This document shows positions 36,844 to 52,014 of a DNA stretch of 64,000 nt, in pieces. Both the position numbers and the translations under genes were made by a program. Numbering within the stretch: position 1 is the stretch's first letter; each line of letters starts with the position of its first letter. The notes beneath the pieces are model-generated. The model was not told the origin of the DNA. It ran no database searches and worked only from the letters and a program-made list of their open reading frames with translations. This DNA is from Hyunsoonleella flava (GTDB taxonomy: Bacteria; Bacteroidota; Bacteroidia; Flavobacteriales; Flavobacteriaceae), in the NCBI RefSeq assembly GCF_004310325.1, contig NZ_SIRT01000014.1, positions 1-64,000 of the forward strand. Direction: 5' to 3'.

Positions 36844-36887
36844 GTAACTAATGTTACAGTACAATAAAGTTATATAAACTACTTTTA
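36844..36887 (+). promoter_or_regulatory. Crp/Fnr-type site and -7 box before the cytochrome gene
   Basis: GTAACTAATGTTAC (36844-36857), a perfect GTAAC-N4-GTTAC palindrome. TACTTTTA at 36880-36887 is one base off TAnnTTTG. The site centre is 29.5 bp before the box, as at five other sites of the region. Confidence 0.75.
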
Positions 36888-36910
36888 AAAATTACTAAAA
36901 ATAATAATTA

Positions 36911-37921
36911 ATGAAAAACTTTATTTTCTTATCACTGGTTTCCTTTTTAATTTTTAGTTGTAACGACACCAAGAAGAAAGGATATGCCACATACGATATA
37001 CAAAAAGACATTAGCCAGCACCCTGGGAAAAAACTAATGGAAACCAATTGTTACATTTGCCATAACCCTACAGCAAGTCATGATAATAGAATTGCACCAC
37101 CAATGATAGCCATAAAAAAGCACTATATAACAGACACTACAAACAAAAGTGAATTTATTGATGCGATGCAGACATGGATAAAAAACCCTAATGCCGAAGA
37201 CGCAAAAATGTTTGGTGCCGTATATCGTTTTGGTGTTATGCCTAAAACGCCATATCCTGAAGAAACCATAACGCAAATTGCCGATTATATGTTTGATCAT
37301 GATATTGAGCAACCAGAATGGTTTGAAGATCATTTTAATAAGGAAAGAGAAATGCAACATGGGAAAGGTACGGGTAATGGTATGGGAATGGGGAAAGGTA
37401 TGCATAAAAAGCACATGCAAACTAATTTTGAAGATTTGCCTTACGGAGAGCGCGGCTTAAAATATGCCTTAACAACAAAAGCTGTATTAGGCAAAAATTT
37501 AATGGGAACAATTCAAAAAAAAGGTACTCTTGAAGCTTTAGCCTTTTGTAATGAAAAAGCATATCCTTTAACGGATAGTATGGCTGTTGTGCACAATGCC
37601 AAAATCAAACGAGTATCAGATAAGCCAAGAAATATAAATAACCAAGCCAATACTGAAGAGTTAAAGTATATAAAAACATTTAAACAGGCTATTGCCAACA
37701 AAGAAGAGCCCAAACCAATAGTTAAAGAATTAAATAATGAAGTACACGTATATTATCCTATAACTACTAATGCTATGTGCTTGCAGTGTCATGGAAAGCC
37801 AAATGAAATTATTAACAAAGCAACATTAGAAAAATTAACATCTTTATATCCAAAAGATAAGGCTATTGGTTATGAAATTAATCAGGTAAGAGGTATTTGG
37901 AGTATTACTTTTGATGAATAA
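36911..37921 (+). CDS. Cytochrome c / DUF3365 (Tll0287-like) lipoprotein
   Basis: 336 residues with a lipobox (FLIFSC, Cys17), so probably membrane-anchored in the periplasm. An N-terminal cytochrome c domain carries CYICH (Cys47, Cys50, His51) and a likely axial Met in RFGVMPKTPYP. After a Gly/Met/Lys-rich linker, a C-terminal DUF3365 haem domain has CLQCH (Cys290, Cys293, His294). DUF3365 domains are seen as redox or gas sensors and as electron carriers. A Crp/Fnr-type site is directly upstream, so expression is probably tied to redox state. Confidence 0.93.
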   Translation: MKNFIFLSLVSFLIFSCNDTKKKGYATYDIQKDISQHPGKKLMETNCYICHNPTASHDNRIAPPMIAIKKHYITDTTNKSEFIDAMQTWIKNPNAEDAKMFGAVYRFGVMPKTPYPEETITQIADYMFDHDIEQPEWFEDHFNKEREMQHGKGTGNGMGMGKGMHKKHMQTNFEDLPYGERGLKYALTTKAVLGKNLMGTIQKKGTLEALAFCNEKAYPLTDSMAVVHNAKIKRVSDKPRNINNQANTEELKYIKTFKQAIANKEEPKPIVKELNNEVHVYYPITTNAMCLQCHGKPNEIINKATLEKLTSLYPKDKAIGYEINQVRGIWSITFDE

Positions 37922-37996
37922 ACCATGTTCGGTATGGCAAATTTTCGAAATTAATAATTGTTGTATTTGTATTGAAATAATATTAACGCAATACAA

Positions 37997-38040
37997 CTGA
38001 CAAATGTCATATTTAATAAAACTTATGATTAATATTTTTG
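37997..38040 (+). promoter_or_regulatory. Variant Crp/Fnr-type site and -7 box before the 49-residue peptide
   Basis: CTGACAAATGTCAT (37997-38010) is a perfect TGAC-N4-GTCA palindrome, and TATTTTTG (38033-38040) is an exact -7 box. The centre-to-box distance is 29.5 bp, the same as at the GTAAC-N4-GTTAC sites. Confidence 0.65.
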
Positions 38041-38066
38041 AAATTTAGAACCAAAAAACTGTATTT

Positions 38067-38216
38067 ATGATAACTCAAAATATTGCATTATTCAATTGGA
38101 GTAATGGCGTAATAATGATAGCTATTTTTGGACTAGTTTGCTTATTTCTTGTTGGCTTTTTAATTAAGTTTATGGCTGGTGGTAATAAGAATAATAATGA
38201 GCCTAAAGAACAATAA
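38067..38216 (+). CDS. 49-residue single-span membrane protein
   Basis: ATG at 38067, stop at 38214-38216. The product starts MITQNIALFNWSNGVIMIAI, continues through one membrane helix (FGLVCLFLVGFLIKFM) and ends in a polar Asn/Lys tail. It has its own promoter with a Crp/Fnr-type site and a strong terminator 18 bp after the stop, so it is a complete transcription unit. It lies between a cytochrome gene and a probable copper receptor. No known family was recognised. Confidence 0.75.
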   Translation: MITQNIALFNWSNGVIMIAIFGLVCLFLVGFLIKFMAGGNKNNNEPKEQ

Positions 38217-38233
38217 TTTATAGTTTTTAAAAT

Positions 38234-38266
38234 AAAGGAGCGCATTAAAAAATGCGCTCCTTTTTT
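38234..38266. terminator. Bidirectional terminator
   Basis: AAAGGAGCGCATT (38234-38246) pairs perfectly with AATGCGCTCCTTT (38251-38263), loop AAAA, T-run to 38266. It serves the small peptide gene and the convergent TonB receptor gene. Confidence 0.93.
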
Positions 38267-38282
38267 GTATAATAACTGGATG

Positions 38283-40385
38283 TTAAAATTTATATTGCAA
38301 GAAGGCAGAGAGGTTTCGTCCTGGTTCTGTAATGGGGGTTCTTCCAAAATCTGCTTGGTTTGTAAAAGAAAAGTTTAAATGGTTGTTGTAAGCTTCATCA
38401 AAAGCATTAATTAACGCCACTCCTAAAGTTATGCTTTTAATAGGCTTTATTCCCAAGCGCATATCTAAAGTTTCATAAGCGGCAGTTGTTGTTTCTCCAA
38501 AGCTTCTTGAAATATTATCTTGTTTTGATACTAAATTATACTGAATATTTCCCCAAAATTTATTCTTTTCAATACCTAAAGATAACCGCGTTGTACGGGG
38601 AGGTGTTAATGGAAGGGATTCAGCTAAATCTTTGTTTTTAGCATACACATAAGAAAATTCAGTTTTAAAATAACAATGGTTTAAAAAATCAATTTGCGCC
38701 ATAGCTTCAAAACCAGTTTTATAAGCTTCATCTAGATTTCTAAAAACTTTTGGGTTTCTTGGTTGTGCCATAGGTCTAAACTTCCTGTTTAACGTTTCAT
38801 CTACGATACCAACAATATAGTTTTCAAAAAACGAATAGTAAAAGGAGGTTTCATATCTAAAGCTATTAAAGCCATTTTTCAAGGGTTCATTGCCTTTAAA
38901 ACCAATTTCAAACTGATTATTAACTTCAGCTTTTAAATTAGGATTTCCAATATATTCAAAAGGATCTTGCCCTACTGTAAAATGATTGATGAAGCGCTCT
39001 ATCATATTAGCAGATCGTACACCTCGCCCATAAGCAACTTCTAAAGTAAATTTATCTGAGACTATTTGTTTTACAGAAACTGTACCGCTAACGTTATGTT
39101 CTGTACGCTTCTTTAAATCGTACATGGCAGCAAAGTCGTCCTCAGGATCTTGTATGTCTGAAGCAACATTGTCGTAACGTATTCCAGCTGTAAAAATAGT
39201 TTTAGAATTTAGATTGTATTTTGCTTCAGTAAATACACCTATATCTGTAATGTAAGAGTCTTGCCAAACTTTATCATTAAACGTCATTGGCATTGGTAGA
39301 GGGTTTCCATTCATTATTTTTACCAATCGCGTTCTGCCTCCGTCTCTAGCAATATGCATTGCATCTATACCCGAAAAAAGGTTTAACCTTTTGGCAGGTT
39401 CCCAGTTTAATTCTAATTTACCACCAAGTGTTGTTGCATCAACAGCAGAGGCAGCTTCCATCATCATGAAAGAAGGCCTATTATTGTTGGTCATTAAATG
39501 GTCTACATAGCTGTAATAGGCTTTTGCCGTTAATGATTTTAGGGCTTTACCTATATTATCTAATTTATAATCTAAAGCAAAAATGCTACTATTATCATAT
39601 TCGGTATCCATGGGTAACGCAGCATGTAGTACATCACGACCAAAAGATTGTCGCCAATGTGCTTTTAAACGTTGGTCTTCAGAAAAATTATAGCCTATTT
39701 TAATGCCATAATCTGTACTTCTAAAGGACGATGGGATTTCTATACCATCACCATCCTCATAATTTCCAAAATCTCTATAACCAGCATTTGCTACAATATC
39801 ATATTTTTCTTCAATGTATTGTATTTGTGCTAAGTTTACTAAAGAATTTCCGTTGCTTTCGTAACCTCCAGAAACTTTTCCATGTAATCCATAATCTTCA
39901 TAATCTGGTTTTTGGGTTACTAAATTTACAATGCCTCCAAAAGTGGCTCCGTATCTAACAGTATAGGGCCCTTTTATAATTTCAATTTTAGAAATTTCCT
40001 CAGGAATAATATGCGTTGTAATGGGGTCCATTCGGTTAGGGCAGGCATGCATTGCTTTGGTACCACCATCATACTGAATATTTAACTGTTCGTATTGTGC
40101 AGCTCTAAACGATGGGTCGATCGCATAATTTCCTCTTTTTATAACCGAAAAGCCATTAATGTTGTTGAATAAATCGGCTACATTTTTAGGTTGCATAATT
40201 TTTTCGTCATATTTATTTGCAACAACAGTAAGTACAGGGTCTGTTGTTACATTTCCATTTACAATAACCTCACTAAGTTTTATTGTTTTTTGCTTTGTTG
40301 TATCTTTTTTGGTATCGCTATTTTTTTGACCATAAGATACAGCCGTAATTAGCGTGCATAGAAGCACACTATAAAATGTTTTCAT
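38283..40385 (-). CDS. TonB-dependent outer-membrane receptor, probably for copper
   Basis: 700 residues: signal peptide (to about residue 19), a plug domain (VADLFNNINGFSVIKRG...IEIIKGPYTVRYGATFGGIVNL) and a 22-strand barrel ending in LSAFLQYKF. No N-terminal CarboxypepD domain, so it is not of the SusC type. The plug has MHACPNRMDP, with Cys115 and Met119 spaced as in the CxxxM copper site of OprC/NosA receptors; copper import is inferred from this. It follows, on the same strand, a small Cys-containing membrane protein gene. No Crp/Fnr-type site was found for this - strand unit. Confidence 0.92.
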   Translation of the reverse strand: MKTFYSVLLCTLITAVSYGQKNSDTKKDTTKQKTIKLSEVIVNGNVTTDPVLTVVANKYDEKIMQPKNVADLFNNINGFSVIKRGNYAIDPSFRAAQYEQLNIQYDGGTKAMHACPNRMDPITTHIIPEEISKIEIIKGPYTVRYGATFGGIVNLVTQKPDYEDYGLHGKVSGGYESNGNSLVNLAQIQYIEEKYDIVANAGYRDFGNYEDGDGIEIPSSFRSTDYGIKIGYNFSEDQRLKAHWRQSFGRDVLHAALPMDTEYDNSSIFALDYKLDNIGKALKSLTAKAYYSYVDHLMTNNNRPSFMMMEAASAVDATTLGGKLELNWEPAKRLNLFSGIDAMHIARDGGRTRLVKIMNGNPLPMPMTFNDKVWQDSYITDIGVFTEAKYNLNSKTIFTAGIRYDNVASDIQDPEDDFAAMYDLKKRTEHNVSGTVSVKQIVSDKFTLEVAYGRGVRSANMIERFINHFTVGQDPFEYIGNPNLKAEVNNQFEIGFKGNEPLKNGFNSFRYETSFYYSFFENYIVGIVDETLNRKFRPMAQPRNPKVFRNLDEAYKTGFEAMAQIDFLNHCYFKTEFSYVYAKNKDLAESLPLTPPRTTRLSLGIEKNKFWGNIQYNLVSKQDNISRSFGETTTAAYETLDMRLGIKPIKSITLGVALINAFDEAYNNHLNFSFTNQADFGRTPITEPGRNLSAFLQYKF

Positions 40386-40451
40386 TTACAAGTAATTTAA
40401 TTTTAACTTAAGTAATTGGAGTGGTAATTACTATCTCTCAGACAAAAAGTA

Positions 40452-40829
40452 TTATACTCTTGGAGGATGAAAAAAATCATAAGTATTTATAAATGAATAT
40501 AAGTTATTATAGGTAATTAGGACGGGCTTTTTATTATGAATTATTTTAGGAAATAAAAATTCTGAAGTATGAGTTGAGAACAAAATAACTTCCTTGAAAT
40601 CAATAATACTTTCAGGAGTGTTTTGTTTATTATCTTGCGATTTAGCTACTTTTTTTAAGTGACATTTACCGTTACATTGTAATTCTGGTTGGTCTTTGTT
40701 TTCACATAATGCTTCAATAAAACCTACGGGATCTAACTCATAATAGGCATAAGTTAAAGATGTTTTTGTGCTATTGATTAATATCAAAGCACTTAAAAAA
40801 ATAAAAACTATAGGTGTGCCTACTTTCAT
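40452..40829 (-). CDS. Small secreted/membrane protein with CNGKC motif
   Basis: 125 residues: N-terminal hydrophobic helix (TPIVFIFLSALILINST), then CENKDQPELQCNGKCHLKK and a hydrophilic region ending YDFFHPPRV. Similar short proteins with a CNGKCxLxK motif stand directly upstream of TonB receptors in many Bacteroidota (from memory). The cysteine cluster could bind metal, but this is not shown. TATCTTTG at 40844-40837 on the - strand is its likely -7 box. Confidence 0.7.
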   Translation of the reverse strand: MKVGTPIVFIFLSALILINSTKTSLTYAYYELDPVGFIEALCENKDQPELQCNGKCHLKKVAKSQDNKQNTPESIIDFKEVILFSTHTSEFLFPKIIHNKKPVLITYNNLYSFINTYDFFHPPRV

Positions 40830-40967: not shown

Positions 40968-41011
40968 GCAACATTGGTTACATAGTTAAATACTATACAA
41001 TAGTACCTTTA
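40968..41011 (+). promoter_or_regulatory. Crp/Fnr-type site and -7 box before the peroxiredoxin gene
   Basis: GCAACATTGGTTAC (40968-40981), one base off GTAAC-N4-GTTAC, and TACCTTTA at 41004-41011, one base off TAnnTTTG. Centre-to-box distance is 29.5 bp. Confidence 0.65.
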
Positions 41012-41039
41012 CTATAAACAATACAAATAGTTATAAATT

Positions 41040-41708
41040 ATGAATATCACAGAAACAACACAAGAACAAGAATTTTATGCAATGCCAAGAATTGGGGACA
41101 CAGCTCCAGATTTTGAAGCGGTAACAACTAAAGGGAAAATAAAAATGTCTGATTTTGCTAAAGACAAATGGATTGTTATGTTTTCGCATCCAGCAGATTT
41201 TACACCTGTTTGCACCACAGAAATGAGTGGTTTTGCTACTAGGAAAAATGAATTTGATGCCTTAAACACAGAGCTTTTAGGTTTAAGTATAGATAGCATT
41301 CATGCACATTTAGGCTGGGTACAAAACGTTAGGGAAAATACAGGAGTGTATTTTGACTTCCCAATTATTGCAGATATAGATATGAAGGTATCTAAACGCT
41401 ACGGTATGTTACAGCCAAATGAAAGTGAAACCGCCGCAGTTCGTGCAGTATTCTTTATAGATCCAGAGAAAAAAATTCGACTAGTTATGTACTATCCTTT
41501 AAACGTTGGTAGAAATATGGACGAAATTTTAAGAGCTCTAGAAGCTTTACAAACATCTGACAAGTATAAAGTGGCAATGCCTTTAGATTGGAAAAAAGGA
41601 GATAAAGTAATTGTTGGTCCTCCAAAGACGTTAGATGAATTAAACGAAAGAATAAATGATGATACTTTAGAAAAGGTCGATTGGTATTTGGCAAAGAAAA
41701 ATATATAA
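41040..41708 (+). CDS. 1-Cys peroxiredoxin (Prx6-like)
   Basis: 222 residues; reduces peroxides via Cys58 in HPADFTPVCTTE. This is the only cysteine in the protein, so it is a 1-Cys enzyme needing an external reductant. The GDTAPDFEAVTTKG start and the C-terminal half with MYYPLNVGRNMDEILRALEALQ and the RNMDEILR helix are typical of the Prx6 group. A Met at residue 15 is an alternative start. A Crp/Fnr-type site lies 72 bp before the ATG. Confidence 0.95.
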   Translation: MNITETTQEQEFYAMPRIGDTAPDFEAVTTKGKIKMSDFAKDKWIVMFSHPADFTPVCTTEMSGFATRKNEFDALNTELLGLSIDSIHAHLGWVQNVRENTGVYFDFPIIADIDMKVSKRYGMLQPNESETAAVRAVFFIDPEKKIRLVMYYPLNVGRNMDEILRALEALQTSDKYKVAMPLDWKKGDKVIVGPPKTLDELNERINDDTLEKVDWYLAKKNI

Positions 41709-41735
41709 AAGTAATCTTAAAAAACAGGCTTTTTT

Positions 41736-41781
41736 GTGTAACATTAGTTACTACTATTAAATTACTTATTGTCTAAATTTA
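41736..41781 (+). promoter_or_regulatory. Crp/Fnr-type site before the DUF2202 gene
   Basis: GTAACATTAGTTAC (41736-41749), a full match to GTAAC-N4-GTTAC. The best -7 candidate, TAAATTTA at 41774-41781, gives a centre distance of 31.5 bp, two more than elsewhere. Confidence 0.65.
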
Positions 41782-41803: not shown

Positions 41804-42466
41804 ATGAGAAATTCAGTTTTAAATCAGTTAGCTACTATTGCAATATTGTTTATATCGTTTGCATTTTTTAATGGTTGTAGTGATAATGATGAAATTAATG
41901 ATATTGTAAATGAGGGTATAAATAATAATACACCAAATGATACACCAAAGGAAATATTAACAGCAGCAGACAAGGCAGCTTTATTATTTATGTTAGAAGA
42001 AGAAAAATTAGCAAGAGATACATATATCTATTTAAACGATTTATGGGCTATTAATCAATTTGCAAACATTACAAAGAGTGAACAAACCCATATGGATGCG
42101 ATTGCCAATTTGTTAACTCAAAACAAAATCCAATATACGGTTTTACCTGTTGGTGAATTCAAAAATCAAGATTTACAAAACCTTTACAATCAATTTGTAA
42201 TTAATGGTAAAGTAGATAAAATTAATGCCTTTAAAATTGGCGCAACAATTGAAGATTTAGACATTGTAGACTTACAAAATCTTATGGATGCTAGTCAAAA
42301 CACCGATATGATCTCTATTTTTAAAAGTTTACAATGCGGTTCTCGTAACCATTTAAGAAGTTTTATTAAGGGATTAGACAATATAGGAGGCACTTATTCA
42401 CCACAGTTTTTAACACAAACGGAATTTGACACCATTGTATCAGCACGTAATGAAAAGTGTAATTGA
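41804..42466 (+). CDS. DUF2202 ferritin-like lipoprotein
   Basis: 220 residues with a lipobox (FFNGCSDN). After an Asn-rich spacer the DUF2202 domain starts at about residue 50: MLEEEKLARDTYIYLNDLW and ITKSEQTHMDAIANLL hold the Glu and His residues spaced as a di-iron four-helix (ferritin-like) site, and LDIVDLQNLMDAS and CGSRNHLRSFI complete it. Iron or oxygen handling is suggested, not established, for the family. It has its own Crp/Fnr-type site. Confidence 0.88.
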   Translation: MRNSVLNQLATIAILFISFAFFNGCSDNDEINDIVNEGINNNTPNDTPKEILTAADKAALLFMLEEEKLARDTYIYLNDLWAINQFANITKSEQTHMDAIANLLTQNKIQYTVLPVGEFKNQDLQNLYNQFVINGKVDKINAFKIGATIEDLDIVDLQNLMDASQNTDMISIFKSLQCGSRNHLRSFIKGLDNIGGTYSPQFLTQTEFDTIVSARNEKCN

Positions 42467-42518: not shown

Positions 42519-42561
42519 GTAACATATGTTACATAAGTAAATTAATAATCCTTGTATTTTG
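42519..42561 (+). promoter_or_regulatory. Crp/Fnr-type site and -7 box before the candidate sRNA
   Basis: GTAACATATGTTAC (42519-42532) is perfectly palindromic through the spacer. TATTTTG (42555-42561) lies 29.5 bp from the centre. No ORF follows before the terminator at 42640. Confidence 0.7.
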
Positions 42562-42566
42562 CTCTA

Positions 42567-42669
42567 GAATACTATTTATTTACTGGATACCTTATAATTT
42601 TAGGATTTGGAATAAGAATTTAGAAGATTAATAGCAAATAAAAGCACTCAATTAATTGAGTGCTTTTTT
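42567..42669 (+). ncRNA. Candidate Crp/Fnr-controlled small RNA, about 100 nt
   Basis: The region between the promoter box at 42555 and the terminator at 42640-42669 contains no ATG-started frame of any length. The predicted 5' end (about 42567) puts the Crp/Fnr site at -41.5. The transcript would be about 103 nt and end in a perfect hairpin plus T-run. The logic is like FnrS of enteric bacteria, though no sequence similarity is claimed. Exact ends are predicted, not measured. Confidence 0.5.
42640..42669 (+). terminator. Perfect-palindrome terminator of the candidate sRNA
   Basis: AAAGCACTCAATT / AATTGAGTGCTTT (42641-42666), fully complementary, followed by a T-run. It is too far (about 170 bp) from the DUF2202 stop to be that gene's simple terminator, though readthrough is possible. 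Confidence 0.88.
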
Positions 42670-42976
42670 ATTTCTAAACTATTGCGAGATATAGCACTAG
42701 ATCTGATAGAGATCATTGTGTCAAACAAATTTCTCAAATATCTTTGGTTGTGTTTTAATTAAAACAGGATTACTAAGCCTACAAAATCTATTTAAAAATC
42801 CTTTTGGAATTTCATGCTAAATACAGCAAGGGTATTAGAGTGTCTGCAATTATTGGTGTTGGTATCCTTTTAAATCATACTCTTTTTTTCAGTAAAGAAA
42901 GATCAGAGGTTTATGGACGAAAATATACAACTCAACTTCTTAATATAAATAAACATCGATAGAAAAAAGACAGCAA
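42670..42976. other. Intergenic stretch with a possible degenerate ORF fragment
   Basis: No complete gene seen. A + strand frame of about 46 codons ending at TAG near 42961 (VSAIIGVGILLNHTLFFSK within it) lacks an ATG start and could be decayed coding DNA. I could not assign it to a family. Confidence 0.35.
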
Positions 42977-43020
42977 GTAACATTGGTTACAAACTTCAAC
43001 TCAACATTAAACTATGTTTG
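42977..43020 (+). promoter_or_regulatory. Crp/Fnr-type site and -7 box of the efflux operon
   Basis: GTAACATTGGTTAC (42977-42990) with an exact -7 box TATGTTTG (43013-43020), centre distance 29.5 bp. This is the best-formed example in the window. The leader to the TolC gene is about 15 nt. Confidence 0.8.
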
Positions 43021-43039: not shown

Positions 43040-44347
43040 ATGAAAAAACATATTTATATAACACTAGGCCTTTTGGCTTTTACACTTTTCGTGGAAGCCC
43101 AAGAAATGGTTCCAATATCTAAATCTGAAGTACAATCTAAGGTTTTAGAAAACAATACTTCTATTAAAATTTCAGAAGAAGAATTTAAACAAGCACGAGC
43201 AGATTACAGACAAACAAACGCTGTGTTTTTACCAAACATTACTGCAAGTCATACAGCAATAGCAACTACTAATCCATTAATGGCTTTTGGTTCAAAATTA
43301 AATCAGGAAATTTTAACACAAAACGATTTCAATCCTGCTTTGCTAAACGATCCATCTCAAATTGAAAATTTCGCAACTAAGCTAGAAATACAGCAACCAC
43401 TTATTAATCTAGACGGAATGTTTCAACGAAAAGCCGCCAAATCTAAAATGGAGGCCATGTCTTTAAAAACAGAACGCACGAAAGACTATTTAGCGTTTGA
43501 AGTTGATAAAGCATACATGCAATTACAATTAGCATATAAAGCTATAGATGTTTTAGAAAAAGCACTAGAAGCGGCCAATGCCAACAAAAAACTAGCAGAC
43601 GATAGTTTTAAACAAGGCTATCTACAACGTGCAGATGTGTTAAATGTAGAAGTACGTGTAACCGAAGTTCAGAACCAGTTACATATGGCAAAAAGTAATG
43701 TTCAAAACGCATCCAATTATTTATCTTTTTTAATAAATGATGAAAGTTTCGTTGTTTACGCACCAACCGACGAGTTGACTGTATCTGCTTATACTTTGCA
43801 GGATAAAACAGTTTCAGAAAACCGGTCAGATATTAAAGCGATGCAATTTGCATCAAACGCTTTTGAATCCATCAATAAAGCAGATAAAATGGCATTCTTA
43901 CCAAAATTAAATGCCTTCGGTAGTTATGAGATGTATGACGATCAAATCTTTCAAGCTGATGCCAATGGATATTTATTTGGAGCACAATTAAGTTGGGATA
44001 TTTTTCAAGGCTCAAAACGTTTTGGAAAAGCGCAAAAGAGCAAAGCAGAATTCGAAAAATCCAAGCTAGAATATGAGCAATATGTATCGCAAAGTCAATT
44101 AGAATTGAATAAAGTAAAACGCGCATTTTTAGATGCTGAAAACAAATTAAAACTTACTGAATTAGCATTACAACAATCAGATGAATCTTTACGAATTCGA
44201 ACAAACAGATTTAAAGAAGGTTTAGAAAAAACATCCGATTTATTAATAGCAGAAACACAATACGCCCAAAAACAATTAGAATATTATCAAACCATTTTTG
44301 AATACAATTATACACAAGCGTATTTACAATTTTTAACTAAAGAATAA
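43040..44347 (+). CDS. TolC-family outer-membrane efflux protein
   Basis: 435 residues with a signal peptide (to about residue 20). The two long TolC helical repeats are visible: ISEEEFKQARADYRQTNAVFLPNI in the first and ALQQSDESLRIRTNRFKEGLEKTSDLLIAETQYAQKQL in the second (key words LRIRTNRFKEG and TSDLL). It forms the outer-membrane channel of the tripartite pump encoded with the next two genes. First gene of the operon, directly behind a Crp/Fnr-type promoter. Confidence 0.95.
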   Translation: MKKHIYITLGLLAFTLFVEAQEMVPISKSEVQSKVLENNTSIKISEEEFKQARADYRQTNAVFLPNITASHTAIATTNPLMAFGSKLNQEILTQNDFNPALLNDPSQIENFATKLEIQQPLINLDGMFQRKAAKSKMEAMSLKTERTKDYLAFEVDKAYMQLQLAYKAIDVLEKALEAANANKKLADDSFKQGYLQRADVLNVEVRVTEVQNQLHMAKSNVQNASNYLSFLINDESFVVYAPTDELTVSAYTLQDKTVSENRSDIKAMQFASNAFESINKADKMAFLPKLNAFGSYEMYDDQIFQADANGYLFGAQLSWDIFQGSKRFGKAQKSKAEFEKSKLEYEQYVSQSQLELNKVKRAFLDAENKLKLTELALQQSDESLRIRTNRFKEGLEKTSDLLIAETQYAQKQLEYYQTIFEYNYTQAYLQFLTKE

Positions 44348-44355: not shown

Positions 44356-45492
44356 ATGAAAAAAACATATACAATCCTAACACTTTTGGTAACACTAATA
44401 TTAGCAAGTTGCGGAAGCGAAGGCAAAAATAACGTTGCTGATAATTCACCAGCAATTACTGTTAAAGTAAACCAAGTGGAAGCAAATGGAAATAGTCCAT
44501 TTTTATCTACTAGTGGAAAAATACAAGCTAAAAATAGTGCCGATTTAAGCACTAGAATGATGGGTTACGTTAATAAAGTACATGTAAATGTTGGAGACCA
44601 AGTACACAAAGGGCAATTATTAGTTTCCATTAACAATGCCGATTTACAAGCTAAAAAAGCACAAGTCAATGCCGGAATTACCGAGGCTACAGCTGCTTTT
44701 AATAATGCACAAAAAGATTATAATCGTTTTAAAAACTTATTTGCAAGCAATAGTGCCTCTCAAAAAGAAATGGACGATATAACCGCTAATTTTGAAATGG
44801 CTAAAGCCCGTTTAGAAGCTGCAAACCAAATGAAAAACGAAATTAATGCACAATTTACATACAGCAATATTTCCGCTCCATTTAATGGAATTATTACTAG
44901 TAAAAATATAAAAGTTGGTGATATGGCAAATCCTGGAATGCCATTAATAAGCATAGAAACACCGGGGGTTTTTGAAGTGATAGCTATGGTACCAGAAACA
45001 GAAATTTCAAGCATTAAAACGGGAATAACCATTGATGTTTTGGTGAAATCCATCAACAAAACTCTTAAAGGAAAAGTGACAGAAGTAAGTTCATCTGCAA
45101 AAAATACAGGAGGGCAATATTTAGTAAAAATAGATTTAGACAGAACAGAAGCCAATATTTTATCAGGCATGTTTGTTACCGTACAATTTCCAGTAGAAAA
45201 GAAAGCTAAATGGTCTATGGTTTTAATACCTGAAGACGCTATCGTAAAAAATGGGCAACTATCTGGAGTTTACACCGTAAGCCAAAGTAATACAGCCTTG
45301 TTACGTTGGCTGCGTTTAGGCAAGACGTTTGGGAACCAAGTAGAAGTCTTATCTGGATTAAATGCAGATGAAGCTTACATTGTTTCTGCCGAAGGAAAAT
45401 TGTTTAATGGTGCAAAGATAAGCCCATCCTCAATCCTTCCCAAAGGGAAGGAAGCCAATACGGAATCAAACTTAAAAAAAAGTATTAATTAA
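44356..45492 (+). CDS. RND efflux periplasmic adaptor (membrane fusion lipoprotein)
   Basis: 378 residues. Lipobox LILASC (Cys19). The lipoyl-like half-motifs GYVNKVHVNVGDQVHKGQLL and FNGIITSKNIKVGDMANPGMPL flank a helical hairpin (about 100-170), followed by beta-barrel and membrane-proximal domains. It links the RND permease to TolC. The last ~25 codons run through a palindromic repeat (45434-45452), so the C-terminal tail SSILPKGKEANTES is probably repeat-derived. Starts 8 bp after the TolC gene. Confidence 0.94.
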   Translation: MKKTYTILTLLVTLILASCGSEGKNNVADNSPAITVKVNQVEANGNSPFLSTSGKIQAKNSADLSTRMMGYVNKVHVNVGDQVHKGQLLVSINNADLQAKKAQVNAGITEATAAFNNAQKDYNRFKNLFASNSASQKEMDDITANFEMAKARLEAANQMKNEINAQFTYSNISAPFNGIITSKNIKVGDMANPGMPLISIETPGVFEVIAMVPETEISSIKTGITIDVLVKSINKTLKGKVTEVSSSAKNTGGQYLVKIDLDRTEANILSGMFVTVQFPVEKKAKWSMVLIPEDAIVKNGQLSGVYTVSQSNTALLRWLRLGKTFGNQVEVLSGLNADEAYIVSAEGKLFNGAKISPSSILPKGKEANTESNLKKSIN

Positions 45493-45545: not shown

Positions 45546-48500
45546 ATGAAAGAAGGAATCGCAGGTAAAATTGCCAAAATCTTTATACAATCGAAGTTAA
45601 CAGTTTTGTTAATGATTGTGTTTATGGTTGTTGGTGTGTATAGTTCGTTTTTAATTCCGCGTGAAGAAGAGCCACAAATTGATGTGCCTATGGCCGACAT
45701 TTTTGTTGGGTATCCTGGAGCGAGTCCAACAGAGGTAGAATCGCGAGTTATTAAGCCTTTAGAACAACTCATTTCGAACATAAAAGGTGTTGAATATGTC
45801 TACTCTACGTCGATGAAAGAGCAAGGTATGGTGATTGTACAGTTTTATGTAGGCGAAGATATTGAGCGCAGTTTCGTGAAATTATATAACGAAATTAACA
45901 AGCACATGGATCAAATGCCTGCAGGCGTAACGTTTCCGTTGGTAAAAACACGTGCCATTGATGATGTACCAATGTTAGGATTAACCTTGTGGAGCGAAAA
46001 TTACGACGATTACCAATTAGGCCAAATGGCACAAGAGCTTGAATCTGAAATTAAAAAGGTAAACGATGTAGCCATGACGCATAAAATTGGCGGGAGAAAT
46101 CGCCAATTACGTGTGGTTTTAGATAAAGATAAACTAGCAGCAAGTGGACTTGATTTCTTGATGGTTTCTGAAATGATTAAAGTGAACAATAGTCAATTAA
46201 ACTCCGGAAGTTTTGATAAGAATGATACCGAATTTTTAGTAAATACTGGTAAGTTTTTGGAATCGGTTACCGATGTGGAGAATTTAGTAGTTGGTGTGCA
46301 ACAAAATCAGCCCATTTATTTAAAGCAAATTGCTACAATTATTGACGGACCAGAAGTACCACAAAACTATGTGAGTTTAGGATTTGGTAAAGGCAGTGCG
46401 AAAGCTTCGGAATACCAATCTGAGTATCCTGCTGTAACCATTTCTGTTGCTAAAAGAAAAGGTGCTGATGCCATGAAAATTGCTGAGGTTATTATTGATA
46501 AGGTATCACATCTTCGAACAACTTTAATCCCAGATGATGTCCATGTTGAAATTACAAGAAACTATGGTGAAACGGCGTCACACAAAGTATCAGAATTACT
46601 CTTGCACCTTATTGGTTCTATTATAGCGGTAACTATTGTGGTTATGTTGGCTATGGGTTGGCGCGGTGGTTTGGTGGTGTTTTTATCCGTTCCAATCACG
46701 TTTGCTTTAACGCTTTTGAGTTACTATATGTTGGATTACACGCTAAACAGAATCACATTATTTGCATTGGTATTCGTTACTGGTATTGTGGTAGATGACT
46801 CCATTATTATTGCTGAAAATATGCATAGGCATTTTAAAATGAAACGCTTGCCTTTTAAACAAGCCGCCTTATACGCTATAAATGAAGTTGGTAACCCTAC
46901 TATATTGGCAACCTTTACCGTAATAGCGTCTGTTCTACCTATGGCGTTTGTATCTGGATTAATGGGGCCATATATGGCACCAATGCCAATTGGAGCGTCT
47001 ATTGCCATGATATTATCCTTATTTGTGGCTTTAACAATAACGCCTTATTTGGGTTATATTTTCTTGAGAGAAAAGGACAAAAAAGTCGCTGCAGATAAAC
47101 CTGAAAAAGCAATTGAGGATACGGCTATTTATAGAGTTTATAATAAGTTTGAAAGACCCCTATTAGAAAGCAAAACAAAACGTTGGTTGTTTTTAGGTGG
47201 AACATTCTTGTTACTTATGGGCACCATGGTTTTGTTTTTTACAAAATCGGTTGCAGTAAAAATGCTGCCTTTTGATAATAAAAATGAATTCCAAGTAGTC
47301 ATAGATATGCCTGAAGGTACAACACTAGAAAGAACTGGCGTTGTAGCTCAAGAAATTGCACAATATTTATCCACCCGACCAGAAGTGGTTAATTACCAAA
47401 ACTACATTGGAACCTCGGCGCCAATTACTTTTAATGGATTGGTGCGTCATTACGATTTACGTGGCGGTAGTAATATGGCCGATATTCAAGTAAATTTATT
47501 GGACAAAAAAGAACGCTCTGATCAAAGTCACGATATTGCGAAGTTACTGCGACCAGATATTCAAAACATAGCTTCAAAATATAATGCAAATGTGAAATTA
47601 GTTGAAGTCCCACCAGGGCCTCCAGTTTTATCAACAATAGTAGCTGAAGTTTATGGCCCCGAATATGACAAGCAAATTGAAATAGCCAATAGTATACAAG
47701 ATATCCTGAAAAACACAGAAGATGTTGTGGATATCGATTGGATGGTAGAAGCAGATCAAACCGAATATCAATTCGAAATTAACAAAGAGAAAGCAATGTT
47801 ATACGGAGTTGCTCCGCAGCAGATAGTTTACACAATGAATATGGCTCTGTCTAACAGAATTCTAACCAACCTATATGACGAAGATGCCGTTAATCAAGTT
47901 GGATTATTGTTGACTTTAGATGAAAAAGAAAAATCGACAATTTCTGATATTTCACAATTAAAGGTGAAATCTAAACAAGGTAATATGGTGCCTATTGCAG
48001 ACTTGGTTAATATTACAGAAACTAATACAGCAAAAAGTATTTACCGCAAAAACCAAAAACGAGTAGTCTATGTTATGGCCGATATGGCAGGTGAATTAGA
48101 GAGTCCCGCTTATGCAATTTTGGGGATGGAAGAAAAACTGAAAAACATTCCATTACCAAAAGGTTACGAGATTAACGAAATGTATTTAGGTCAGCCAGAT
48201 TTTGAAGATGACTACACTGTAAAATGGGATGGTGAATGGCAAATAACTTTGGAGGTTTTTCGAGATTTAGGCATCGCCTTTTTAGGCGCTATTATTCTAA
48301 TTTATATTTTAATTGTAGGATGGTTTCAAAATTTTAAAGCACCAATAGTTATGATGGTTGCCATACCATTATCATTAATCGGGATTATTCTGGGACACTG
48401 GATTATGGGGGCGTTTTTTACTGCTACCTCATTTATAGGAATGATTGCTTTAGCTGGAATTATGGTGAGGAACTCCGTATTACTTATTGATTTTATCAAC

Positions 48501-48740
48501 CTAAGAACAGCTGAAGGTGCACCATTAAAGCAAGCTGCTATTGAGGCAGGCGCCGTACGAACAACACCCATTCTATTAACGGCAGGAACCGTTGTAATTG
48601 GGGCGTTCGTAATACTTTTTGATCCTATTTTTCAAGGGCTAGCTATATCACTAATGGGAGGAACCATCGTGTCAACAGTTTTAACCTTGTTGGTTGTGCC
48701 ACTTGTTTATTATATGATTGAGAAAAAGAATTATAAATAA
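45546..48740 (+). CDS. RND efflux permease (AcrB/MexB-like superfamily)
   Basis: 1064 residues, full length for a proton-driven RND pump: twelve membrane helices in two halves and two large periplasmic loops. Seen: N-terminal SKLTVLLMIVFMVVGVYSSFLIPREEEPQI, GYPGASPTEVESRVIKPLE, and the helix 4 proton-relay pair in GIVVDDSIIIAENMHRH. A second half with YLGQPDFEDDYTVKW and MIALAGIMVRNSVLLIDFI follows. The DD pair resembles drug/organic exporters rather than the CusA type. Substrate unknown; context suggests reactive sulfur, metal or redox stress. Confidence 0.95.
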   Translation: MKEGIAGKIAKIFIQSKLTVLLMIVFMVVGVYSSFLIPREEEPQIDVPMADIFVGYPGASPTEVESRVIKPLEQLISNIKGVEYVYSTSMKEQGMVIVQFYVGEDIERSFVKLYNEINKHMDQMPAGVTFPLVKTRAIDDVPMLGLTLWSENYDDYQLGQMAQELESEIKKVNDVAMTHKIGGRNRQLRVVLDKDKLAASGLDFLMVSEMIKVNNSQLNSGSFDKNDTEFLVNTGKFLESVTDVENLVVGVQQNQPIYLKQIATIIDGPEVPQNYVSLGFGKGSAKASEYQSEYPAVTISVAKRKGADAMKIAEVIIDKVSHLRTTLIPDDVHVEITRNYGETASHKVSELLLHLIGSIIAVTIVVMLAMGWRGGLVVFLSVPITFALTLLSYYMLDYTLNRITLFALVFVTGIVVDDSIIIAENMHRHFKMKRLPFKQAALYAINEVGNPTILATFTVIASVLPMAFVSGLMGPYMAPMPIGASIAMILSLFVALTITPYLGYIFLREKDKKVAADKPEKAIEDTAIYRVYNKFERPLLESKTKRWLFLGGTFLLLMGTMVLFFTKSVAVKMLPFDNKNEFQVVIDMPEGTTLERTGVVAQEIAQYLSTRPEVVNYQNYIGTSAPITFNGLVRHYDLRGGSNMADIQVNLLDKKERSDQSHDIAKLLRPDIQNIASKYNANVKLVEVPPGPPVLSTIVAEVYGPEYDKQIEIANSIQDILKNTEDVVDIDWMVEADQTEYQFEINKEKAMLYGVAPQQIVYTMNMALSNRILTNLYDEDAVNQVGLLLTLDEKEKSTISDISQLKVKSKQGNMVPIADLVNITETNTAKSIYRKNQKRVVYVMADMAGELESPAYAILGMEEKLKNIPLPKGYEINEMYLGQPDFEDDYTVKWDGEWQITLEVFRDLGIAFLGAIILIYILIVGWFQNFKAPIVMMVAIPLSLIGIILGHWIMGAFFTATSFIGMIALAGIMVRNSVLLIDFINLRTAEGAPLKQAAIEAGAVRTTPILLTAGTVVIGAFVILFDPIFQGLAISLMGGTIVSTVLTLLVVPLVYYMIEKKNYK

Positions 48741-48750
48741 TAACATTTGG

Positions 48751-48813
48751 TTGAGTGCAGTAGAGACCTATATGTAGCAAAGTAGTTGAAATGAGTTCTC
48801 GACTGCGCTCGAA
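48751..48813. repeat. Dispersed flavobacterial inverted repeat
   Basis: GAGTGCAGTAGAGA (48753-48766) and TCTCGACTGCGCTC (48797-48810) are complementary at 12 of 14 positions. The element contains the familiar GTTCTCGACTGCGCTCGAAC core. It separates the permease gene from the next small gene, and an ATG inside it (48791) is not a real start. Confidence 0.75.
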
Positions 48814-48832
48814 CCTACAAAAATTTAAGACA

Positions 48833-49138: not shown

Positions 49139-49156
49139 TCTTAAAAATTAAGCAAA

Positions 49157-49342
49157 ATGTTAAATACATATTTTAGAGTTATTGTTGGTTTTATGGTGCT
49201 TTTAAGCGTTATACTAACCATATACGTAAATACAAACTGGATGTGGTTTACCGTATTTATTGGCGTGAACTTGATTCAATCAGCATTTACCAAATGGTGT
49301 TTATTAGAAACTATATTACAAAAATTAGGAGTGGAAAAATAA
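49157..49342 (+). CDS. DUF2892 membrane protein (YgaP-tail-like)
   Basis: 61 residues, two membrane helices (FRVIVGFMVLLSVILTIYV and MWFTVFIGVNLIQSAF), then FTKWCLLETILQKLGV, the DUF2892 signature with WC. The same domain forms the membrane part of the rhodanese YgaP, and stand-alone copies occur in sulfur and thiol clusters. It is 18 bp after the previous gene and probably closes the efflux operon. Confidence 0.88.
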   Translation: MLNTYFRVIVGFMVLLSVILTIYVNTNWMWFTVFIGVNLIQSAFTKWCLLETILQKLGVEK

Positions 49343-49444
49343 GATTTGCGCCCGTACTTCTTTCTAATCTGTAATTAAATATTAGTACATTTTTTATTAA
49401 ACCCAAATGATAATTTAATACATTTTAAATTGTTATTTTTGGGT

Positions 49445-50074
49445 ATGGATTATAATTTATTGCAACAAAAGTTTTCCCATATTTTTGATGACGAATTAAT
49501 AGTTGAAATTTCAGAAAAAGGAATATTTAAAAACTTCAAGAAAGATGATATTATAATTGATATTGATCAACCATTAAATTTCATTCCATTATTACTGGTT
49601 GGAGATATCAAAATCATTAGAGAAGATGATGATGGTCATGAAATTCTTATATATTTTCTTGAAGCTGGGGAGACTTGCACTATGTCTTTAACATGCTGCC
49701 TGGGTATTGCGAAAAGTAAAATTAGAGCTGTAGCCGAAAAAGACTCTAGTTTAATTATGATTCCTGTTCATAATATGCAGAAATGGTTTGATAGTAATGC
49801 TAGTTGGAGAAACTTTATTTTACAAAGCTACCAAATTCGCTTTGAAGAAATGCTTGAAGCTATAGATAGTCTTGCATTCATGAAAATGGATGAACGTTTA
49901 TACAAATATCTAAAAAACATGGCCATGATTGATGAATCTAATACCATATCCATAAAACATCAAGATATTGCCGAAGATTTAAATACTTCTCGTGTAGTTA
50001 TCTCTAGACTCTTAAAGAAATTAGAGACCGAACGTAAAATTAAATTAGGACGAAATAAAATCGTTATTTTATAA
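49445..50074 (+). CDS. Crp/Fnr-family regulator with Cys78/Cys84/Cys85
   Basis: 209 residues from MDYNLLQQKF; the in-frame codon at 49430 would put a -7 box (TATTTTTG, 49434-49441) inside the gene. Cyclic-nucleotide-binding-type barrel (about 10-120) and a C-terminal winged helix with IKHQDIAEDLNTSRVVISRLLKKLE. There is no N-terminal Fe-S cysteine cluster as in Fnr; instead GETCTMSLTCCLG places three cysteines in the sensor domain, which suggests thiol or persulfide sensing (inference). The recognition helix (TSRVVISRLL) is like that of NtcA, whose GTA-N8-TAC target matches the local sites. Confidence 0.92.
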   Translation: MDYNLLQQKFSHIFDDELIVEISEKGIFKNFKKDDIIIDIDQPLNFIPLLLVGDIKIIREDDDGHEILIYFLEAGETCTMSLTCCLGIAKSKIRAVAEKDSSLIMIPVHNMQKWFDSNASWRNFILQSYQIRFEEMLEAIDSLAFMKMDERLYKYLKNMAMIDESNTISIKHQDIAEDLNTSRVVISRLLKKLETERKIKLGRNKIVIL

Positions 50075-50166
50075 GTTTTTCAACTTTTAAAAGATCTTTT
50101 TTCGTCCATTAAAATTCTGAAAAAAGTTTTTAATACCAATTATCCCGTAAAAAATAAACTTCAATG

Positions 50167-50174
50167 TAAATTTG
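50167..50174 (+). promoter_or_regulatory. -7 box of the sulfur-transport operon
   Basis: TAAATTTG, 15 bp before the ATG at 50190. No good GTAAC-N4-GTTAC site is seen at the expected distance, so this unit may be controlled differently or weakly. Confidence 0.5.
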
Positions 50175-50189
50175 CAACAAACATTAGGT

Positions 50190-50747
50190 ATGAATTATAT
50201 ATTAAACCCATGGCCTTGGTATATTTCAGGTCCACTTATAGCCTTAGTTATGGCGCTCCTACTCTATTTTGGTAAAACATTTGGCATGTCTTCAAATCTA
50301 AGAACCATGTGCACCATTGCTGGAGCAGGTAAATTTGTCGATTTTTTCAATTTTAGGTGGAAAGATCAAATTTGGAATTTAACCGTAGTGTTTGGCGCCA
50401 TAATTGGTGGCTACATTGCTGTTAATTTCCTATCGAATGATATTGGAACGGATTTAAATCCAACAACAATAGTAGAACTACAAAATATGGGATTTTATAG
50501 CCCCGGAGAAACTCTAGTGCCAAATGAAATTTTCGATTTAGACGTTTTAGCATCTCCTAAAACCTTAATAATTCTTGTTATAGGAGGGTTGCTTGTTGGT
50601 TTTGGCACACGCTATGCTAGTGGCTGTACATCTGGGCATGCTATAACAGGATTGAGTAGTTTTCAAAAGCCATCTTTAATTGCGGTTATTGGCTTTTTTA
50701 TTGGAGGTCTCATTATGGCTAATTTCATTTTACCCTTAATATTTTAA
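50190..50747 (+). CDS. YeeE/YedE-family sulfur transporter, first half
   Basis: 185 residues with about four to five membrane helices. MNYILNPWPWYISGPLIALVM is a typical start; the upstream TTG at 50172 is not needed. MCTIAGAG and RYASGCTSGHAITGLSSFQ carry the conserved cysteines of YeeE/YedE (TsuA-like thiosulfate uptake) proteins. Two short proteins often replace the long one, and the second half follows 3 bp later. Cargo is probably a sulfur species such as thiosulfate. Confidence 0.9.
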   Translation: MNYILNPWPWYISGPLIALVMALLLYFGKTFGMSSNLRTMCTIAGAGKFVDFFNFRWKDQIWNLTVVFGAIIGGYIAVNFLSNDIGTDLNPTTIVELQNMGFYSPGETLVPNEIFDLDVLASPKTLIILVIGGLLVGFGTRYASGCTSGHAITGLSSFQKPSLIAVIGFFIGGLIMANFILPLIF

Positions 50748-50750
50748 TAT

Positions 50751-51164
50751 ATGAAGTTTTTAAAATTTTTATTGATTGGAGTATTTTTTGGTATTGTTTT
50801 GGTAAAATCTGAAGCCGTGTCTTGGTACCGTATTTATGAAATGTTTCGTTTTCAATCCTTCCACATGTATGGCATTATTGGTACTGCAATTGCATCAGGT
50901 ATTTTGTTTCTTCAATTATCAAAAAAAGGGATTATAAAGAATATAAACGGATCAAAAATACATGTTCCTAAGAAAGAAGATGGTTTAGTAAGATATATTA
51001 TTGGTGGTATAATTTTCGGACTTGGTTGGGCACTAGTAGGTGTTTGTCCTGGACCTATGTACATTCTTTTAGGTACAGGTGTTTGGAGTATGGTTATTGT
51101 TATCGTTGCGGCCATTTTTGGTACATTCATTTACGGACTTTTAAAAAATAAGCTACCACATTAA
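50751..51164 (+). CDS. YeeE/YedE-family sulfur transporter, second half (DUF6691-like)
   Basis: 137 residues with four membrane helices. The motif GVCPGPMYILLG has the conserved cysteine of the family, and SWYRIYEMFRFQSFHMYG is typical of DUF6691. It is encoded 3 bp after the first half and its stop codon directly abuts the ATG of the TauE/SafE gene, so the three are one operon. Confidence 0.9.
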   Translation: MKFLKFLLIGVFFGIVLVKSEAVSWYRIYEMFRFQSFHMYGIIGTAIASGILFLQLSKKGIIKNINGSKIHVPKKEDGLVRYIIGGIIFGLGWALVGVCPGPMYILLGTGVWSMVIVIVAAIFGTFIYGLLKNKLPH

Positions 51165-51962
51165 ATGGATTCCACTCAAATATTAGGATATATTGGCGCT
51201 CTAATTGTTGGCCTAGTACTAGGACTAATTGGAGGAGGAGGCTCCATATTAACAGTACCATTATTGGTGTACTTATTGGGCTATAATCCTGTAATAGCTA
51301 CAGCATATTCCCTATTTGTTGTGGGCGCCTCTTCTATGGTTGGTACGTATCAAAAACATAAAAAAGGATTGGTGGACTTTAAAACGGGGTTAGCCTTCTC
51401 CTTCCCGTCTTTTGTGGCTGTGTATGCCACACGTCGCTATTTAGTTCCTGGAATTCCTGACACTTTTTTCAGTATTGGTAATTTCAGCTTAACAAAGGAT
51501 ATGGGCATTATGATATTTTTCGCCATTATTATGATAATCGCCTCGTACTCTATGATTAAGAACAGAAAAAAGCGTCTTAATAATTCCAAGAGTCAGAGTC
51601 AGCCCTACTACAAAACATTTATACAAGGTGTAATAATAGGAACAATCACAGGAATAATTGGAGCTGGTGGTGGCTTTCTATATGTACCTGCACTTGTGCT
51701 TTGGGCGAATATTCCAATGAAAAAAGCGGTAGGCACATCTTTAATTATAATCACTATCAATTCATTAATTGGATTTGTTGGAGATGTCCAAACATTAAAT
51801 ATAGAATGGACTTTCCTGCTAATATTTACAGGTATTGCCATTTTAGGCATCATTTTAGGTGTGTTTTTATCAAGGTTTATTAGTGGTGAAAAGCTGAAAA
51901 AGAGTTTTGGATATTTCATACTTATCATGGCTACCTACATCATTTACAAAGAGTTAAATTAA
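51165..51962 (+). CDS. TauE/SafE-family sulfite/anion exporter
   Basis: 265 residues and about eight membrane helices in two repeated halves, each with a glycine-rich loop: VLGLIGGGGSILTVPLLVYLLGY and TGIIGAGGGFLYVPALVLW, then GTSLIIITINSLIGF. The family exports sulfite or sulfoacetate-like anions. The ATG touches the preceding stop. Sulfite is the product expected from persulfide oxidation by the MBL-rhodanese protein encoded next. Confidence 0.92.
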   Translation: MDSTQILGYIGALIVGLVLGLIGGGGSILTVPLLVYLLGYNPVIATAYSLFVVGASSMVGTYQKHKKGLVDFKTGLAFSFPSFVAVYATRRYLVPGIPDTFFSIGNFSLTKDMGIMIFFAIIMIIASYSMIKNRKKRLNNSKSQSQPYYKTFIQGVIIGTITGIIGAGGGFLYVPALVLWANIPMKKAVGTSLIIITINSLIGFVGDVQTLNIEWTFLLIFTGIAILGIILGVFLSRFISGEKLKKSFGYFILIMATYIIYKELN

Positions 51963-51970
51963 GTTTAAAT

Positions 51971-52014
51971 GTGATAATAGTTACAAACCGAACCAATTAG
52001 GTTTAGTAATTTTG
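51971..52014 (+). promoter_or_regulatory. Crp/Fnr-type site and -7 box before the MBL-rhodanese gene
   Basis: GTGATAATAGTTAC (51971-51984): the right half is perfect, the left half differs at two bases. The exact -7 box TAATTTTG (52007-52014) is again 29.5 bp from the centre. Confidence 0.65.

Follow-up and report, generated by a model that had tools for sequence, protein, structure and literature searches.

The window analyzed here, a 64-kb stretch of contig NZ_SIRT01000014.1 of Hyunsoonleella flava (genome of 3.81 Mb), contains a block of genes encoding a cytochrome, a peroxiredoxin, an efflux pump, sulfur transporters, a metallo-beta-lactamase (MBL)-rhodanese protein, and a regulator of the Crp/Fnr superfamily encoded at 49445 (table 1). 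Genes of this block are preceded by a 14-letter palindrome, GTAAC-N4-GTTAC, hereafter the operator, and by its partner, a TAnnTTTG-like -7 box. We describe this operator and its assignment to the 49445 protein. The MBL-rhodanese gene at 52037 is one that we take to be of the persulfide dioxygenase-rhodanese type.

Table 1. Operators, genes, and other features of the block, in order of position (PWM, weight matrix score; MBL, metallo-beta-lactamase)
Feature	Position	Strand	Evidence
Operator GTAACTAATGTTAC and -7-like box TACTTTTA (36880)	36844..36887	+	0 mismatches; PWM 24.6 bits
c-type cytochrome / Tll0287-like (DUF3365) protein	36911..37921	+	PF11845 74.7 bits; cytochrome domain slightly below cut-off
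Different operator, FNR-type, CTGACAAATGTCAT and box TATTTTTG	37997..38040	+	PWM 3.2 bits
49-residue membrane peptide	38067..38216	+	tblastn matches in 9 other loci, E<=1e-3
Operator GCAACATTGGTTAC and box TACCTTTA	40968..41011	+	1 mismatch; PWM 21.4 on each strand
1-Cys peroxiredoxin	41040..41708	+	PF00578, PF10417; NF009668 289.9 bits (cut-off 211)
Operator GTAACATTAGTTAC and box TAAATTTA	41738..41781	+	0 mismatches; PWM 30.4
DUF2202 protein	41804..42466	+	PF09968 171 bits
Operator GTAACATATGTTAC and imperfect box TATTTTGC	42519..42562	+	palindrome exact; PWM 21.7
Candidate short RNA with intrinsic terminator end	42567..42672	+	106 nt; fold z -4.35
Operator GTAACATTGGTTAC and box TATGTTTG	42977..43020	+	0 mismatches; PWM 27.3
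Outer membrane efflux protein, TolC-type (OEP)	43040..44347	+	PF02321
Membrane fusion protein of RND pump	44356..45492	+	operon position; label by reading
RND efflux permease	45546..48740	+	best NCBIfam RND model 460 bits, none above its cut-off
Crp/Fnr regulator, Cys78/Cys84/Cys85, recognition helix TSRVVISRLL	49445..50074	+	PF00027, PF13545
YeeE/YedE-type half transporter (Sulf_transp)	50190..50747	+	PF04143
Second YeeE-type half transporter	50751..51164	+	label by reading; homologues in 33/80 regulator loci
TauE/SafE-type exporter	51165..51962	+	PF01925
Operator GTGATAATAGTTAC and box TAATTTTG	51971..52014	+	2 mismatches; PWM 25.2
MBL and two rhodanese stretches	52037..53449	+	PF00753, PF00581 (2 stretches)

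The first-pass annotation of this DNA had described one type of site at seven positions. The GTAAC-N4-GTTAC class, with a -7-like box 22 bp downstream, is present at six of them (36844, 40968, 41738, 42519, 42977, and 51971); the site at 37997 has four mismatches and belongs to another operator class, described below. Read from the sequence, all seven sites have the T of their -7-like box at position +36 from the site start, 29.5 bp beyond the palindrome center. This is the distance first proposed, and the single exception of 31.5 bp reported at 41736 disappears because the palindrome there really starts at 41738. The fixed center-to-box distance gives a placement like that proposed, of the class II type. 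Counted from the first base of the site, the start codon follows at 63-72 bases for five of the six window sites.

Grouping these sites in one regulon remains supported for six of the seven, and calling that regulon local does not, as genes on other contigs also have sites. One exact palindrome precedes a gene for a type III sulfide:quinone reductase (SQR) of the selenoprotein subtype (NCBIfam 652 bits, cut-off 525). Another lies between the genes of a SorA-like sulfite dehydrogenase (240 bits, below the cut-off of 600) and of a 230-residue membrane protein, and a one-mismatch site is found ahead of a DUF983 gene. Two further exact palindromes, in a coding region of contig C10 and 3' of a sigma-factor gene (named by reading) on C12, look like chance occurrences.

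The exact palindrome occurs four times in the window, compared with 0.03 in shuffled sequences, and the palindrome with its box, at up to two mismatches, six times, compared with 0.33; none of 100 shuffles reached six. Eight exact palindromes are found in the genome, including the four of the block, and the three followed by TAnnTTT are all within the block. Allowing one mismatch, we identified nine palindrome-box pairs genome-wide and three in the reversed control. Eight of the nine are intergenic and one is in coding sequence. Of the intergenic pairs, seven precede a protein gene in the proper orientation, including two that share a palindrome flanked by divergent genes; the remaining one is 42519. 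The signal resides in these near-exact pairs.

We characterized 80 loci retrieved by peptide patterns including Cys78 and part of the recognition helix, each around a relative of the 49445 protein. The relatives that are named (Algibacter, Tamlana, Winogradskyella, and Flavobacterium) point to Flavobacteriaceae as the family sampled. The exact palindrome is found 92 times, in 48 of these loci. A box is located at +22 in 68 of the 184 orientations, and at any other offset in at most six. With one mismatch allowed, 100 boxes lie at +22, versus 0-3 for eight control palindromes. A position weight matrix (PWM) of 52 positions was built from 112 good-box sites of these loci, excluding the window sequence. 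Applied to the window, it gave seven hits of at least 9 bits, which are the six GTAAC-type sites (40968 on both strands), with scores of 21 to 30 bits. In the reversed window it found two hits, the best of 10.4 bits, and in 40 of the 80 loci in reverse (739 kb) five, the best of 18.9. No base exceeds a frequency of 0.53 between palindrome and box among the 112 sites; hence no -33 element is seen. In another genome of the same genus (G132), the sites at the places of 36844, 41738, 42977, and 51971 recur, and those of 40968 and 42519 do not.

Under a more permissive rule, a site with a box is present in 64 of the 80 loci. This rule yielded 152 site rows, seven of them from the window, whose target clusters were named from Pfam or by reading. 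MBL-rhodanese genes follow 42 of these sites (in 38 of the 80 loci and in the window), TauE genes 25, and YeeE genes 19. Cytochrome/Tll0287-like genes follow seven, cytochrome bd genes five, and genes for a protein of about 120 residues five. Twenty-five rows are singletons, including 14 open reading frames (ORFs) of less than 100 residues. Autoregulation was rejected as a rule, since sites directly precede the regulator gene in three of the 80 loci (L135, L149, and L189) and no such site was found in the window.

From other genomes, we took 30 regions holding an exact pair distant from the regulator, among the matches listed. Three were dropped because a regulator copy is present within about 13 kb: L199, where the site precedes an OEP gene; L213, with TauE and DUF983-like (by reading) targets; and L212, with a 51-residue ORF, the 120-residue protein, and, in the opposite direction, a YeeE gene. 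Among the 27 unlinked pairs that remain, 11 are located ahead of sulfur-related genes: three rhodanese, two MBL-rhodanese, one TauE, one SorA-type molybdenum oxidoreductase, one YgaP-like, and three named weakly, namely two pyridine-nucleotide oxidoreductases read as SQR-like and a DsrE-like protein under its cut-off. Four more precede cytochrome, peroxidase, or thioredoxin genes, two the 120-residue protein, and five an OEP gene, so that the pump of the window represents a type of target that recurs. In L192, an exact site likewise precedes the cytochrome/Tll0287-like architecture of 36911.

Of the 149 genomes sampled in the family, 126 encode a relative of the regulator (E<=1e-10); by genus, one was found in 125 of 148 sampled. 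The 126 genomes contain 673 site-box pairs, versus 239 in the reversed control, and the 23 genomes devoid of a relative 13, versus 29. A comparison of the two groups gives Mann-Whitney values of 2e-11 for the sites and 0.06 for the control. The regulator-free genomes are few, many of them small, and the counts take no account of relatedness. Taken individually, 99 of the 126 genomes with a relative are above their own control and 14 below, versus two and 12 of the 23 others. These site counts, which track the presence of the regulator, and the clustering of sites beside its gene in many genera support the proposal that 49445 is the regulator. Some members of the family encode two relatives; in G101 and G087, an exact site-box pair is present beside each.

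Outside the family, a relative (E<=1e-30) was found in 46 genomes. In two of these (G155 and G237), no more than 30 bp separate the end of the regulator gene from the start of a site, and in three others (G150, G187, and G255) the distance is within 2.6 kb.

The 49445 protein belongs to the Crp/Fnr superfamily, as shown by matches to PF00027 (31.5 bits, cut-off 27.5) and PF13545 (36.5 bits, cut-off 27). Its AlphaFold model has a Crp fold (mean predicted local distance difference test score 86.3; predicted template-modeling score 0.61), with residues 84-86 below 50, and its best fold matches are of the Crp family (top TM 0.65). It scores far from the models of NtcA (TIGR03697, 44.9 bits for a cut-off of 244.95) and of CRP (NF008732, 42.9 bits for a cut-off of 266). 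In an alignment of 81 sequences, the only columns with more than 10% cysteine are 78, 84, and 85; it thus contains no N-terminal [4Fe-4S] cysteine cluster of the FNR type. Pfam revealed Crp/Fnr-type domains alone, and none of the CstR, BigR, SqrR, or FisR families. Cys78 and Cys84 are found in all 81 sequences and Cys85 in 79 (it is absent in L066), and S182, R183, V184, S187, and R188 are identical in all 81. Cys84 and V184 were not part of the retrieval patterns.

In the profile alignment, the recognition helix reads S-R-V-V-V-S-R, compared with S-R-E-T-V-G-R in CRP and T-R-V-T-V-T-R in NtcA. V184 aligns opposite the CRP glutamate, which is also a valine in NtcA; the likeness of this helix to NtcA had been noted from the sequence and is borne out by the alignment. 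CRP recognizes GTGA-N6-TCAC, and its Glu181 contacts the base pair that differs. In the CRP register, this site becomes GTAA-N6-TTAC, the change affecting the base pair read by Glu181. Substitutions of Glu181, in work of 1984 attributed to Ebright, reportedly alter specificity at the contacted base pair. NtcA, the global nitrogen regulator of cyanobacteria, binds GTA-N8-TAC and activates from class II positions. 49445 has the same type of fold and the valine in common with it, and differs by its three conserved cysteines and by targets related to sulfur, not nitrogen. It resembles CRP in fold type, class II-like geometry, and site register, and instead carries cysteines where the loop that binds the cAMP phosphate lies in CRP, residues 84-86 presumably corresponding to this place. 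Among solved structures, the best sequence match is 3dv8, a putative regulator of the Crp/Fnr family from Eubacterium rectale, whose cysteines align to Cys78 and Cys84. It ranks third by fold, with 26% identity in the fold alignment, and its listing gives no function.

The site at 37997, which shares its site-to-box geometry with the GTAAC operators, was rejected as a member of their regulon: it scores poorly with the matrix and is conserved as an FNR-type site. The motif [C/A/G]TGAY-N4-RTCAT, with a box at equal distance, precedes the 49-residue peptide, which has no Pfam match, in seven of the nine other loci (L148 being read from sequence). In the remaining two, the box is two bases closer (L221) or no such palindrome was seen (L180). 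Genome-wide, TGAY-N4-RTCA-N23-TAnnTTTG is found 14 times, versus once in the control. Scans of four of the 14 genes behind it gave ccoN and hemN above their cut-offs, and strong matches to pyruvate formate-lyase and phosphate acetyltransferase, both truncated where the locus stops. Behind other sites, reading identifies a c-type cytochrome, a universal stress protein, and a malate dehydrogenase, and a number of genes have no assignment. Judging from motif and genes, this set is an FNR-like regulon. Some 3 kb away from the ccoN site is L001, a gene for a Crp/Fnr protein that has N-terminal cysteines. The window contains a second FNR-type site with a box (TGATAGAGATCA ... TATCTTTG, 42704-42746), behind which only a doubtful 52-residue ORF is found.

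Both operators meet at the promoters of SQR genes, which we analyzed in those members of the family sample that encode a close SQR, 22 in all with H. flava. One of these loci, L233, is from a 73%-complete genome without a regulator match, and the start codon of L243 was probably misplaced by the ORF rule. The GTAAC palindrome is found upstream of SQR in exact form in 15, with one mismatch in two, and with two mismatches in one. Only in L237 is it at the class II position and accompanied by a TA box, the box-like match of L244 being part of the other operator. Conversely, TGAY-N4-RTCA is located exactly 23 bases before TAnnTTT at 19 of the 22 promoters and at none in the reversed control. Thirteen promoters harbor both, with the center of the GTAAC site 22 to 38 bp further upstream (27 bp in seven of the 13). 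This arrangement looks like a tandem promoter, with an FNR-type protein beside the polymerase and the sulfide regulator upstream. As the GTAAC site at most of these promoters lies upstream of an FNR-type site in class II position, SQR expression probably integrates sulfide with low oxygen. The SQR matches of L236 (G111) and L237 (G007) each contain one in-stretch stop (TAA and TAG, respectively). In H. flava itself (L255; C3:29622-29664, minus strand), the SQR intergenic region holds a further FNR-type site directed toward a divergent outer-membrane gene, FadL-like by reading.

The assignment of operator and regulator is well supported by these sequence comparisons. From the sites, geometry, conservation, co-occurrence, and target families observed by computation, we infer DNA binding by 49445, activation, a thiol switch, and the nature of the signal, as follows. 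A dimer of 49445 would bind GTAAC-N4-GTTAC, the center of which would be some 41-43 bp upstream of the transcription start. There it would act as a class II activator in contact with RNA polymerase; the promoters concerned have a TAnnTTTG-like -7 box and lack a conserved -33 element. Reactive sulfur, as persulfide or polysulfide, would modify Cys78, Cys84, and Cys85, and this probably leads to DNA binding. The genes induced would encode the persulfide dioxygenase-rhodanese, sulfur transporters, peroxiredoxin, c-type cytochromes, TolC-RND pump, SQR, and sulfite dehydrogenase; at most SQR promoters, the GTAAC site upstream of the FNR-type site would probably combine sulfide and low oxygen. Reactive sulfur is the likely signal: the operators stand ahead of persulfide dioxygenase-type, SQR, and sulfur-transport genes, over which they would confer control. 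We give a probability of about 0.78 to this reading, in which 49445 is a Crp/Fnr activator that senses reactive sulfur and switches sulfide defense from class II sites.

Several observations weigh against it. No recognizable GTAAC site was found before the YeeE operon adjoining the regulator gene in the window, and four of the 22 SQR promoters have no GTAAC palindrome in the stretch searched. In G147 (a 73% complete assembly), an exact palindrome precedes SQR and no regulator match was found. The 46 genomes from outside the family together contain 73 sites, versus 97 in the control, hence no excess in aggregate, and a claim for the whole phylum was rejected for this reason. The conservation of Cys78 and of part of the helix is partly built in by the retrieval patterns. 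Among the 27 unlinked pairs, one precedes a porin gene (L216) and one a pyrroline-5-carboxylate dehydrogenase gene (L215), neither obviously related to sulfur, as is also true of the DUF983 target, and three have no assigned gene (L194, L196, and L207). Finally, loose sites are not enriched: the palindrome alone occurs 34 times in the window at two mismatches (26 expected) and 140 times in the genome at one mismatch (217 in the reversed control), and the palindrome with its box, at up to two mismatches, 28 times in the genome (40 in the control). The refuting condition named in the first annotation, many pairs at random places in the genome, was checked: near-exact pairs are intergenic in eight of nine cases, and 12 of the 28 pairs at two mismatches are in coding sequence by the ORF rule. 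The lack of enrichment among loose sites speaks for a chance cluster of palindromes in AT-rich sequence; given that none of 100 shuffles matches the pairs observed and that the sites are conserved across genera, we regard chance as scarcely credible.

A more serious alternative retains regulon and regulator and replaces the signal by oxygen, nitric oxide, peroxide, or copper, the sulfur genes following an accompanying condition. Peroxiredoxin, cytochromes, the RND pump, and, in five of the 80 loci, cytochrome bd are among the targets, most SQR promoters also carry an FNR-type site (19 of 22), and the three cysteines could equally sense oxidants. We nevertheless consider it unlikely, since, among conserved targets, MBL-rhodanese, TauE, and YeeE genes come up most often (86 of 152 site rows) and oxygen appears to have a separate operator in this genome. 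The GTAAC sites might also be bound by another paralogue, as the genome encodes seven cyclic-nucleotide-binding (cNMP) proteins. One of them, L006, also has a valine at the position of the CRP glutamate, without the preceding arginine; four others have a glutamate, which fits TGA and not TAA half-sites, and one a proline, and all six lack the R-V---R set of 49445 (L005 was aligned by eye). With site counts that track the 49445 family over 149 genomes and sites flanking its gene across genera, this makes binding by a paralogue improbable. Repression by 49445 instead of activation is about equally doubtful. It would conform to CstR and SqrR, known reactive-sulfur regulators that repress according to the portion available of PMC9774590. 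However, a repressor would not need one fixed spacing, and the single 22-bp position, with no strongly conserved base in between, has the look of activator-dependent class II promoters.

An activator of this type would differ from the systems described. In the accessible part of a 2022 review (PMC9774590), CstR, SqrR/BigR, PigP, FisR, OxyR, LasR, and OhrR are named as regulators; there, Crp occurs in the references only and Fnr nowhere. CstR, BigR/SqrR, and FisR control sulfide-detoxification genes by means of cysteines, as proposed for 49445, and belong to the CsoR-like, ArsR, and Fis-type families, unlike 49445; CstR and SqrR repress and FisR activates (PMC9774590 and PMC7315123, in the parts available). 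A Crp-like protein is persulfidated in another bacterium, with unknown effect, according to the available text of PMC7315123. In that of PMC11582611, which mentions neither Crp nor Fnr, PmpA and PmpB are two short YeeE-type proteins thought to work jointly; with the YeeE-like SoxT, they are among the nearest known counterparts of the two proteins encoded side by side at 50190 and 50751. Among the matches listed in the literature searched, by which subscription papers are largely uncovered, no title or abstract concerned a Crp/Fnr regulator of sulfide oxidation in Bacteroidota, and none the regulation of sulfide removal in flavobacteria. The portions seen of PMC9603854, PMC12531629, and PMC3265434 contain nothing bearing on the regulon.

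Two further features of the block deserve mention. Behind 42519, the site, its imperfect box, and a strong terminator closing a 106-nt stretch suggest a short RNA at 42567-42672. The small RNA (sRNA) first annotated here remains a candidate; no Rfam match or homologue was found for the stretch, and the site is missing at the corresponding place in G132. Short stretches ending in a terminator are also found behind sites in L148, L164, L173, and L176. A shared sRNA signature, GATTAATAGCAAA, present before the terminators of the window and of L148, was rejected: a longer form of the pattern, with one mismatch, occurs in 69 of the 149 genomes and is thus not specific. The DUF2202 protein was not found in the 80 regulator loci, and its gene is present behind an exact site in G132 (L224).

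The palindrome at 40968-40981 also scores on the minus strand, toward a 125-residue ORF with cysteines (40452-40829), with a poor box. Proteins of 120 residues, similar by eye to this ORF, have their own exact sites in other genera (L201, L209, and L212).

We see an even chance that 49445 represents an undescribed Crp/Fnr branch of this family of flavobacteria, in which the cyclic-nucleotide pocket was traded for a three-cysteine switch for reactive sulfur and one recognition residue changed, setting its operator apart from that of the FNR-type oxygen regulator (TAA vs TGA half-sites), with a geometry shared with the FNR type and with most SQR promoters stacking both operators as a gate for sulfide and low oxygen. 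Two operators one central base per half-site apart, with one residue to explain it, would make a clean test case for the evolution of specificity. If the assignment is true, a Crp/Fnr-type activator would join the CsoR-, ArsR-, and Fis-type regulators already known in this field, and neglected genes, those of the TolC-RND pump, DUF3365 cytochromes, DUF2202, DUF983, and the 120-residue cysteine protein, would gain a context. Flavobacteria are abundant marine heterotrophs, and one operator together with one regulator would predict the sulfide response of many members of the family.

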